This document shows positions 26,648 to 61,599 of a stretch of 64,000 nt of DNA, in pieces (position 1 is the stretch's first letter; every line of letters begins with the position of its first letter). The notes under the pieces were generated by a model. That model had not been told where the DNA came from, made no database searches, and was given only the letters and a program-made list of their open reading frames with translations. Source of the DNA: Lumbricus terrestris (taxonomy: Eukaryota; Annelida; Clitellata; Crassiclitellata; Lumbricidae); NCBI GenBank assembly GCA_949752735.1, contig OX457050.1, forward strand, positions 41,083,553 to 41,147,552, written 5' to 3'. Made by a program: the position numbers and the translations under genes.

Positions 26648-27256
26648 GGTTCCACGACAACTGGTCTACCGACGACTCGTCTACCGACTACTCGTCTCCG
26701 GACAATTAGTCTTACGACAACTGGTCTACAGACGAATAGTATTGATGAAATAGAAGTTGGATTTATGAAAATGGTTTCTTAGCTTAAATGAAAGCTGGAT
26801 TGATGATTTTATTCATGTATTTCGATATGCATCCAGCTTCTACTTCAGATCGAAAAATACCTTCATTCAGCTTCTATTTCTCACCCGTTATTTTCGTCAA
26901 TCCAGCTTCTATTGCATATATAAAACAATACCCTTATCCAGCTTTCATTACTTAAGCGTTTTTCATCAATCCAGCTTCTATTTCAGATCAAGAAATACTT
27001 TCATCCTGCTTTTGTTTCTCATACGTTATTTTCGTCAATCCAGCTTCTATTTCACCTGTAAAAGAGCCATCATCCATATTTTATTTCTCTTGCGTTTTTT
27101 CATCAATCCAATCTCCATTTCATCTGTAAAAACTTTCATCCAACCTCCATTTCTCAAGCGCTGGATCAGTTGTCTGTAGACCAGTTGTCGTAGACGAATT
27201 GTCCGGAGACCACTTGTCGTTAGACGAGTTGTCGGTAGACGAGTTGTCGTGACACC
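26648..27256. mobile_element. Fold-back Mutator-like element, copy A (609 bp)
   Basis: Left end GGTTCCACGACAACTGG, right end CGAGTTGTCGTGACACC. The arms (26648-26745 and about 27165-27256) are tandem words GACAACTGGTCTACC, GACGACTCGTCTACC, GGACAATTAGTC and their inverses. The interior minisatellite turns near 26815. Flanks TCACAGCAC and ATACAGCAC agree at 7 of 9 positions, a worn 9-bp duplication. It lies in the intron between the F-box-like and CARD exons. Confidence 0.8.
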
Positions 27257-27588
27257 ATACAGCACACCATCATCGGAGAAACAATTTTGTCTGTTGTAGC
27301 CTATAGCTAGGCCTACACTACATTAAGTAGAAACCTCTGCTGACTAGTTCTAGTCCGAATTGGTATAATTAGATAATTATTATATTACCCTTAGACAGGT
27401 TAGACAGACAATTATTATTATAGATTGAGTTGATACAATTTGAAAACAACGATAAATTCCAGTTACATGTATCTCATTCATCTAAATGCAAATTTGCCTC
27501 TTACATTTTTAACGACGTGTCACTCATAGAGTAGGCAACCATATGCCTACTGTTGTGTTGATTTGCATTACATTATTGCAAATAGTTG

Positions 27589-27612
27589 TGTAGCGTTTGT
27601 GGAAACGCTACA
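27589..27612. repeat. Perfect 10-bp hairpin, TGTAGCGTTT-GTGG-AAACGCTACA
   Basis: A 10-bp stem with a four-base loop at the left edge of the CpG-rich stretch 27660-27900. TGTAGCG...CGCTACA could be the terminal repeats of an LTR, but no second LTR is found. Confidence 0.6.
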
Positions 27613-28550
27613 GGATCTTACTTATTCTTTTAAATTGCGTCTAATTCTATAACTAATTAATGGGTGAATCAGACTGAGTTTCCAGACAATGCGCCAGACA
27701 TACACGTGACCCTTTAGCTGACGTGGCCAGAGCGCGGGTACTGCTGATTGGTTGTAAGCGGCGCGTGACCCAAAACGGCGGCAGGAAACCGCGTGTGATT
27801 GGATGCTGGGCCAGACAGCGGAAGTTGACGACTGGACGTGGACCGAGTAGGAGCTGTGTGGGAAAAACGAGGTAGAAGGTCGGGTAGAAATTTAGTTAAA
27901 CTTAAATTTTAATACTTCAATTTCTTGTAAAAATTCTTCCAAATTAGTAACGAAAGAAAGAAGGAACTCGACTGTTGCCTCCGGTGAAAGGAAATCTTCG
28001 TGAAGGATTGAATTGGCGATAAATTCAGGAAAGTATAATTTGTCAGAGTAACACGTGTTGAATCCGTAATAGATTGATAGATTGGCTGTTGATCACCGCT
28101 GTAAAAATGCTAATGTAGATAATATTGCATTTAATGTAGACAGCGAAGGTGAATCTGATTTGTGTTACGAGGCCCGAATGTATTGAAGTGTTTAATCGAT
28201 ATTGCGAAACATTGAAGAGGCCATTGTAGTTACAGTTTAATTAGTATGAAATACTGATGTTATTGATTGCATTCGTTGTAATTAGCTTAGCTAAGAGAAC
28301 AGAAGCATAGAGCATATTTAATTTGGATGCAGCAGTGAAACTGTTTGGGTTGAATAGTGCGAACAGTGTTGTAACAATTCACAAATACTGTTGCCTATTA
28401 GGAATACATTGCAATCACACTGTAGTGAACAGACAGATACTGCAGAAAGAACTGCGTTTGTGCGGACCACTTTGATTTACATGTTTAATTAGATTGTAGC
28501 TAAGAAATAATAAAGGTGTTGTGCACATAGTCGAAATTGAAAGTGATACA
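27613..28550 (+). promoter_or_regulatory. CpG-richer leader upstream of the 28551 frame
   Basis: 27690-27880 is visibly richer in CG (TGACGTGGCC, GCGGCGCGTGACCC, AACGGCGGC) with a TGATTGGTTGT CCAAT-type box, as in a promoter. The rest is AT-rich leader-like sequence. The promoter role is inferred from composition and position. Confidence 0.3.
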
Positions 28551-60224: not shown

Positions 60225-60228
60225 TTAA

Positions 60229-60815
60229 ATGGAAGCTGGATTGATGAAAATGTTCTTGCTTAAATCGAAGCTGGATTGATGAAAATATTCTTGCTTAAAC
60301 GGAAGCTGGATTGATGAAAATGTTCTTGCTTAAATTGGAGCTGGATTGATGAAAATAGTCTTGTTTAAATTGGAGCTGGATTGATGAAAATATTCTTGCT
60401 GAAATGGAAGCTGGATTGATGAAAATATTCTTGCTTAATTGGAAGCTGAATTGATGAAAATTGTCTTGTTTAAATTGGAGCTAGATTGATGAAAATATTC
60501 TTGCTGAAATGGAAGCTGGATTGATGAAAATGTTCTTGCTTAAATTGAAGCTGGATTGAAGAAAATATTCTTGCTTAAACGGAAGCTGGATTGATGAAAA
60601 TGTTCTTGCTTAAATGGAATCTGGATTGATGAAAATATTCTTGCTTAAACGGAAGCTGGATTGATGAAAATGTTCTTGCTTAAATGGAAGCTGGATTGAT
60701 GAATATAGTCCTGTTTAAATTGGAAGCTGGATTGATGAAAATAGTCTTGTTTAAATTGGAGCTGGATTGATGAAAATATTCTTGCTTAAAAGGAAGCTGG
60801 ATTGATGAAATTATT
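60229..60815. repeat. Homogeneous ~35-bp minisatellite, ~17 units
   Basis: Tandem GGAAGCTGGATTGATGAAAA + T(A/G)TTCTTGCTTAAA units, the most regular copy of the shared interior repeat in the window; variants are GGAGCTGG and TAGTCTTGTTTAAAT. Each unit contains one TTAA. Confidence 0.93.
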
Positions 60816-61599
60816 AGGTTTTAATTTTTTTTGTTTAAGACGATAAAAGCAATGGTTTCCGCATACGGGGGGAAATGTCCTAGAGTAGGGGGGAAACGTC
60901 CAGGGGGGAAATGTCCGGGGGGAAATGTCCGGGGGAAAATGTCCAGGGGGGAAATGTCCGTTCCCCTAGATTACTATCATTAATAAATGATTTCTGACAT
61001 AACTGACATTTGTACGATTTCTCCCCAGTATGAATTCTCATATGCATTTTTAAATTGAAACCTGTTGCAAAGGATTTCAGACATAACTGACATTTGTATG
61101 GTTTCTCCCCAGTATGAATTCTCATGTGCTTTTTCAGATCATAACCTCTAGTGAATGATTTCAGACATAACTGACATTTGTATGATTTCTTCCCAGCATG
61201 GGCTGTCATGTGACTTTTCAAATGACCAACTTGAGTAAATCATTTCTGACATAACTGACATTTATGTGGTTTCTCCCCAGCATGAATTCTTATATGCGTT
61301 TTTAAATTACTACCTGCGGAAAATGATTTCAGGCAAAACAGACATTTGTATGGTTTCTCCCCAGTATGGATTCTCATGTGCTTTTTCAGATCACAAGATT
61401 GAGTAAATGATTTGTGGCATAACTGACATTTGTATGGTTTTTCCCCAGTATGAAATCTCATATGCATTTTTAAATAACTACCTGTGCTAAAGGATTTCAG
61501 ACATAACTGACAATTGTATGGTTTCTCCCCAGTATGGGTTCTCATGGTATTGTTGATGATTACCTTCTATAGTAAACAATATTTTACAATGCTGGTTAT

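Follow-up and report, generated by a model that had tools for sequence, protein, structure and literature searches.

The window, a stretch of 64,000 nucleotides of Lumbricus terrestris DNA (C16:41083553-41147552 in a searched genome of 1.056 Gb and 331 contigs), carries a set of short elements that share one interior minisatellite (Table 1). Five arm types, designated A, B, C, D, and E, enclose this common interior, and two further elements, K and M, also carry its units; long inverted arms of short tandem repeats, the hallmark of foldback elements, are present in A, B, C, and D. The interior unit has the core GAAGCTGGATTGATGAAAA, is 34-35 bp long, and often takes the form of a 68-69-bp dimer. 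The evidence set out below supports an exchange of arms around a kept interior, because the interior recurs with its arms in each of the families A, C, D, and E, and C holds A-type sequence up to the A end.

Table 1. Elements and other repeat features of the window (positions counted from its first base; TSD, target-site duplication)
Feature	Position	Strand	Details
A-type foldback, 525 bp	50014..50538	+	TSD GTTACCAGG at 50005-50013 and 50539-50547
C-type foldback (probable chimera)	35573..36798	+	TSD ATAATGTCT at 35564-35572 and 36799-36807
A-type half inside C	36296..36645	+	A centre, A interior units, A-type arm ending GTCGTGACACC
A-type element nested in C left arm	35632..36232	+	TSD GTTCACTAC
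D-type foldback in C2H2 zinc-finger exon	57918..60966	+	TSD TAGATTACT; one-orientation interior array
D interior minisatellite, 35-bp unit, 16.9 copies	60225..60815	+	
A-type element	26648..27256	-	Worn TSD, 7/9
B-type half element	56033..57076	+	Interior units, right arm of GTCGTGAACCAGTT words, end GTGGAACC
B-type half element	7536..8698	+	Interior, A-like centre at 7762-7788; right arm end GTGACACC
E-type element	14222..15010	+	Arm GGTGTAAAGG..; units flip at centre; right boundary approximate
Truncated A-type interior, arms not intact	12227..12640	+	
M element	52075..52446	+	Interior units enclosed by ordinary inverted ends GGTTCTT.../GGTACTT...TATACGACCACC; 8-bp repeat ATAAACAA
Truncated K element	55573..55944	+	End match 55573-55605, interior units
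piggyBac-like insert nested in D	58136..60228	.	TTAA both sides, ends CCCTTTGAGTCCC / CCCTTTCAGTCCC

Perfect 9-bp TSDs directly adjoin the ends of four elements, and each of the four 9-mers is present only twice in the window. A preliminary description of this DNA had reported these duplications exactly, together with a worn one at 26648-27256 (7 of 9 bases match) and a GG start and CC end, which all five of the elements it listed possess. The inverted arms of these five elements gave local scores of 36-72, against shuffle maxima of 14-21. A blind scan (exact 9-bp repeat, GG start, CC end, and inverted ends with a score of 25 or more over 70 bp) returned from the window only the elements flanked by GTTACCAGG, GTTCACTAC, ATAATGTCT, and TAGATTACT; from a sample of 200 kb of contig C1, on another chromosome, it returned a 2990-bp B-type element with the TSD ATCGCCACA and an unrelated 247-bp element. 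With 10- or 11-bp repeats nothing was returned from the window or the C1 sample, and with 7- or 8-bp repeats the scan gave shifted A copies and E-type arrays, together with the K element and a few more. Without the end-letter rule its output was dominated by shifted copies, E-type arrays, and noise from repeats, and was excluded from the counts. Excision of D with one TAGATTACT copy makes the interrupted C2H2 zinc-finger frame continuous again, with one stop left in an upstream finger, so that the D insertion site is directly readable. The nested A splits the C left arm, the uninterrupted counterpart of which is present in the C right arm.

Homology searches with element queries, in which the best 40 candidates per query were scored, extended these results to the genome. 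For A (best 40 of 4033 candidates), 28 of the 40 were fetched, nearly in rank order and with the window copy included, and two other window copies brought the table to 30 rows, 19 of them with perfect 9-bp repeats. Merging of rows with identical flanks (L001 with L002, L011 with L016, and L012, L013, L017, L018, and L021 with one another) left 24 distinct sites, of which 14 have a perfect 9-bp TSD. The last five copies share not only the flank but also the TSD, ACACATTTC, and therefore probably lie within a larger repeated stretch. The D query consisted of arm and spacer without the array (best 40 of 1606 candidates), and eight copies were fetched, selected for a match starting at query base 1. 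Among the six read to the right end, L049, L051, and L053 have perfect TSDs, L052 matches at 8 of 9 bases, and L055 at 7 of 8. Copies with 9-bp duplications and several arm types on one interior were what the preliminary description had named as the support to look for; perfect 9-bp duplications stand at 14 of the 24 A sites, in three of the six D copies, in the window D, and in C and B. The 20 perfect TSDs favor G-T-T at their first three positions, with 2.81 bits in total against a maximum of 2.25 bits in 5000 simulations under assumed base frequencies.

The common interior had been recognized in the types first listed, and this holds, although the list was too short, since B, E, K, and M carry the interior as well. 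Its orientation switches inside the A, B, C, and E elements; the center flip that the preliminary description ascribed to the elements fails for D, whose array is unidirectional in the window copy and in all eight fetched copies, two of them not read to the right end. Each of these eight copies contains the array, its unit number ranging from 5 to at least 28, and as the D query held no array, its presence was not built into the search. The C arm-interior junction is spanned in 40 of 40 scored copies (best 40 of 1209 candidates), and the E arm with interior likewise in 40 of 40 (best 40 of 2224); the window copy is among them in each case, and the other 39 match at 92-98% for C and 94-97% for E. 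As the A, C, and E queries included interior sequence, these counts establish that the combination recurs and do not measure how often arms occur without the interior. Interior units of A and D are up to 97% alike. The C1 sample contains 66 core matches, versus 3 in one shuffle, and 52 of the 66 fall in the B element, 6 in the K region, and 5 in the M region. The K element there (C1 142713-143189) has ordinary inverted ends, interior units, and the 8-bp repeat TGAGATTG, and in the second copy of M (C1 143347-143734) the 8-bp repeat matches at 7 of 8 bases.

The C family is the most informative. A 27-base sequence, CATGTATTTCAACATGCATCCAGCTTC, occupies the flip center in A and in one of the B half elements, and in C this same sequence adjoins both arms; with the A center beside both of its arms, C is inside-out relative to A. 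A chimera query (window 36480 to 36760, 281 bases) took in the last 166 bases of the A-type half and continued through the C interior into the beginning of the C arm. All 40 scored copies, the best 40 of 2630 candidates, match at least 276 of the 281 bases unbroken, showing that the A part from 36480 on recurs; in the 39 C copies other than the window's, the A-type half was read within the query only. These other copies show 93-95% identity and are spread over many contigs. In at least 31 of the 40, query 171-281, comprising the C interior end and the C arm start, recurs whole or for the most part in inverted form within approximately 470 bp. Judged from its sequence, C is an amplified chimera in which A-type sequence is enclosed up to the A end. 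On the simplest interpretation, A inserted into C, deletion then removed the left part, and the resulting chimera multiplied with C ends; the deletion in C probably joined two minisatellite units. Since a widespread chimera still holds part of another element, ends and filling are evidently reshuffled between elements.

Genes for a candidate source of mobility are present in the same genome. A profile search with PF10551, the domain of Mutator-like element (MULE) transposases, scored 150 of 211 candidates, 143 of which exceeded the cut-off, and 3 of 14 control genomes also match; equal-scoring MULE open frames occur in sets, e.g. one of 474 aa (10 copies) and one of 456 aa. At the two loci read at length, L057 and L058, both PF04500 (FLYWCH) and PF10551 (MULE) score over the cut-off. 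L057 together with L059 constitutes a complete foldback (179 to 4064, 3886 bp, GGG..CCC) with the 8-bp sequence GTTGTATC on both sides, two arms with 9.4 and 9.8 copies of a 15-bp word, and a FLYWCH frame separate from the MULE frame. The latter, L057:1710-3131, codes for a MULE transposase with a C-terminal RING finger, and its family has ten equal-scoring copies. L058, whose left end was not reached, carries FLYWCH and MULE in one 475-aa frame with the motifs DGTF, DFEKA, and VEAWH in order; the gene is followed by an 81-bp unit in 5.9 copies and then by an arm of the 14-bp words GGGCTATTTTGACG in 13.1 copies. Upstream of its MULE frame, the frame at L058:522-1040 resembles, by eye, part of a retroelement frame of the window (18418-21429). 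Seven further MULE loci were viewed through 451-bp segments downstream of the MULE domain. Two of these, L063 and L064, have an arm of 14-bp GCGCGC words, and that of L064 ends ..GACACC like A and B; L061 has a 139-bp minisatellite that does not match the shared interior, and L065 a 57-bp repeat inside an open frame. The other three 451-bp segments hold no arm, minisatellite, or in-frame repeat, one of them having a 34-bp doublet. A PHD finger, a trait of Rehavkus, is absent from the Pfam domains of the L057 and L058 transposases, which have FLYWCH, plus RING in L057. The Mutator-like/Foldback identity first suggested for the short elements is strongly supported because of the perfect 9-bp TSDs at 14 of the 24 A sites, 9 bp being the usual length for MULEs within a range of 8-11 bp, and because FLYWCH and MULE transposase genes lie between or beside foldback arms.

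The arms had been said to differ completely between types, and in this respect the preliminary description was mistaken. Arm words are 14-16 bp long and begin after an 8-bp terminal cap; A and B have both caps, GGTGTCAC and GGTTCCAC, in common as well as related words. A, B, C, D, and the L057+L059 foldback (designated G) share a register in which GG stands at positions 1-2 and CA at 11-12, followed by A or T at 13. Two more ends beside MULE genes fit this register, for a total of 12 of 12 ends, the F end having been placed by analogy with GACACC and the H end chosen manually so as to fit. In most A and B arms, N[A/T]CA[A/T] boxes stand at 9, 24, 39, and 54; C has them at 9 and 23 (plus 37 in one arm), and D at 9 and then in irregular steps, the first of 14-17 bp. 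In G they stand at 24 and 39 in one arm and at 9, 39, and 54 in the other, then mostly at 13-17-bp steps. A permutation test for any dinucleotide common to one position gave a modest p of 0.0072 with the four types A, C, D, and G, in which both ends are fixed by repeats; with six types the value is 5e-05, stronger but inclusive of the hand-set H end and the F end set by analogy. A scan for the signature (GG, CA[A/T] at 11-13, exact 9-bp repeat) returned 24 matches at that offset, 1 at the next, and 0 at the other eleven offsets; the signature derives from these very elements, and 19 of those matches are in loci fetched by homology, so that the scan attests consistency and is not independent proof. 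Allowing one mismatch added four C1 matches, apparently by chance. K and M lie outside the GG..CA[A/T] register.

These findings make it highly probable that the short elements are non-autonomous foldback MULEs of the Phantom/Muta kind and that the interior is a passenger that has spread between end types. The arm words might then serve as repeated binding sites for the FLYWCH domain, much as in Galileo, where THAP-domain binding sites of the transposase were identified in the tandem repeats of the arms (PMC3688188). Short elements would depend on transposases supplied in trans, and each arm type would answer to its own or to a common one; Muta1, which is mobile in yeast, offers a model for such mobilization (PMC5225508). 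The minisatellite could pass between end types by nested insertion and subsequent internal deletion or recombination between minisatellite units, and the C family may preserve one such step, with enclosed A-type sequence amplified as a unit with C ends. The minisatellites downstream of the gene in two autonomous loci, in Rehavkus, and in aphid Phantom suggest that the shared interior may have begun as an array downstream of a gene in an autonomous element. A bolder proposal, and a doubtful one, is that the ends obey a common code (GG, about six free bases, then N[A/T]CA[A/T] boxes every ~14-16 bp from position 9). Any arm written in this code would keep mobility, so that arms would be exchangeable wholesale and the minisatellite portable across at least six end types, perhaps with a role in cis as a recombination seed or a second protein-binding array. 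If true, dissimilar foldback MULEs could be recognized through their end register by a short rule instead of by similarity.

Several observations weigh against the reading of the short elements as non-autonomous foldback MULEs with a passenger interior. Imperfect duplications occur at 7 of the 24 A sites (one at 8/9, four at 7/9, one at 6/9, and in L006 a perfect 8-bp repeat), and another 3 of the 24 sites, as well as one of the six D copies (L050), have no TSD. The E-type element lies outside the CA register, and no TSD was found for it in the window, for which reason E was left out of the TSD and register claims. K and M, in which the ends are ordinary inverted ones and the repeats 8 bp long, may be members of a different superfamily. 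The 35-bp array is present in none of the nine sampled MULE loci, seven of them seen through the 451-bp segments only, nor does any of the nine pair a transposase gene with arms of type A, B, C, D, or E; in the short elements themselves no transposase was found. Of the MULE-coding full-length copies for which the preliminary description recommended a search, the complete L057+L059 foldback was recovered, but with arms of its own.

The opposing account with the most in its favor is common descent without exchange, in which an ancestral interior is kept while arm words drift rapidly in each lineage, tracking changes of the transposase. The caps and related words shared by A and B, the A flip-center sequence in one B half, and the GG..CA[A/T] register common to A-D and G all fit such descent. 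It is nonetheless rather unlikely, as the C interior is inside-out relative to A, an A-type arm end is internal to C in 40 of 40 scored copies, and K and M combine ordinary inverted ends with the identical unit type; it is also hard to explain why a neutral interior should remain so alike between A and D while functional arms diverged past recognition. Foldback arms have arisen in several superfamilies (PMC3169594), and K and M lack word arms and show 8-bp repeats, so that the elements could be imagined to belong to other superfamilies, e.g. P-type Galileo or hAT, with convergent arms. This is very improbable, given that a 9-bp TSD fits a MULE and not Galileo, which has 7 bp (PMC3573991), and that MULE genes of this very genome show matching end anatomy. 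The arrays without recognized arms nearby, e.g. 12227-12640 and 22720-23080, would suit a minisatellite that is simply a dispersed repeat attracting insertions, arms and arrays meeting by target preference. That account is scarcely credible: the array sits inside the arms and not outside them, none of the A, C, or D TSDs consists of array sequence, the arm-and-spacer query recovered D copies that all have the array, and the C1 core matches are concentrated in one B element, with 11 more in the K or M regions. Spread of the interior between end types of foldback MULEs is the reading that these points leave best supported.

The remaining features of the window are diverse. C2H2 zinc-finger arrays lie on the minus strand at 52478-54172 and 57315-61546, the second being split by D. 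At 17160-17820, E-type ends, GGTGTAAAGG and CCTTTACACC, adjoin as palindromes, as if E had inserted into or beside itself. Retroelement frames at 15678-16844, 18418-21429, and 31120-31677 match reverse transcriptase, aspartyl protease, RNase H, and integrase zinc-binding domains in Pfam, and a frame at 9387-10376 has an NHL repeat match, also in Pfam.

In one genome, then, new transposon families can be seen to arise, on the reading preferred here, by end swaps around a kept interior, with the C chimera, one such swap step, surviving in at least 40 copies alongside transposase-coding relatives. The TU elements of the sea urchin Strongylocentrotus purpuratus were reportedly called modular in 1985 and are said to be foldback elements with tandem 15-bp outer repeats, varied middle segments, and 8-bp duplications.

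The modular exchange of arms proposed in the preliminary description is supported by the A, C, D, and E families and the C chimera; its remark that such a design is not described is not, in view of the Galileo chimeras (PMC3573991) and Muta5 (PMC5225508). For several end types amplified around one minisatellite, and for a repeated chimera holding a fossil part of another element, the accessible portions of the open-licence literature yielded no precedent. In the Galileo chimeras of Drosophila mojavensis, which are likewise foldbacks, both terminal inverted repeats (TIRs) come from one subfamily and the interior from another; unlike the present elements, Galileo belongs to the P superfamily, has a 7-bp TSD, and exchanges parts between the subfamilies of one element (PMC3573991). 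Rehavkus and aphid Phantom resemble the present elements in their TSDs (9-bp or 8-10-bp) and in a minisatellite after the transposase gene, placed in Rehavkus before the 3' TIR; Rehavkus differs by its PHD finger, and the accessible part of the report mentions no short derivatives with a common minisatellite across end types (PMC6446971). In plants, MULEs with tandem TIRs are known (PMC3310237), and Tetris has likewise been described (PMC4079207).

The closest parallels in anatomy are Tm1 and Muta5. Tm1 of Meloidogyne likewise has a 9-bp TSD, a Phantom-type FLYWCH+MULE transposase, differing short terminal motifs at its two ends, and an arm unit of mostly 14 bp in variable number; it has one arm type per species, unlike the situation here, and the consulted portion of the report describes no minisatellite common to arm types (PMC3169594). 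Muta1 and Muta5 of Aedes aegypti share with the present elements a FLYWCH-type transposase, an 8- or 9-bp TSD, a terminal motif followed by 12-15-bp subterminal tandem repeats (in Muta5 an 8-bp motif and 9 x 15 bp), and hundreds of non-autonomous copies with variable repeat number (PMC5225508). Muta derivatives have common arms and varied interiors, whereas here several arm types surround one interior (PMC5225508). Muta5, Tm1, Rehavkus, and the Galileo chimeras cover most of the design, and the anatomy of Tm1 and Muta5 in particular is close to that of the earthworm elements.

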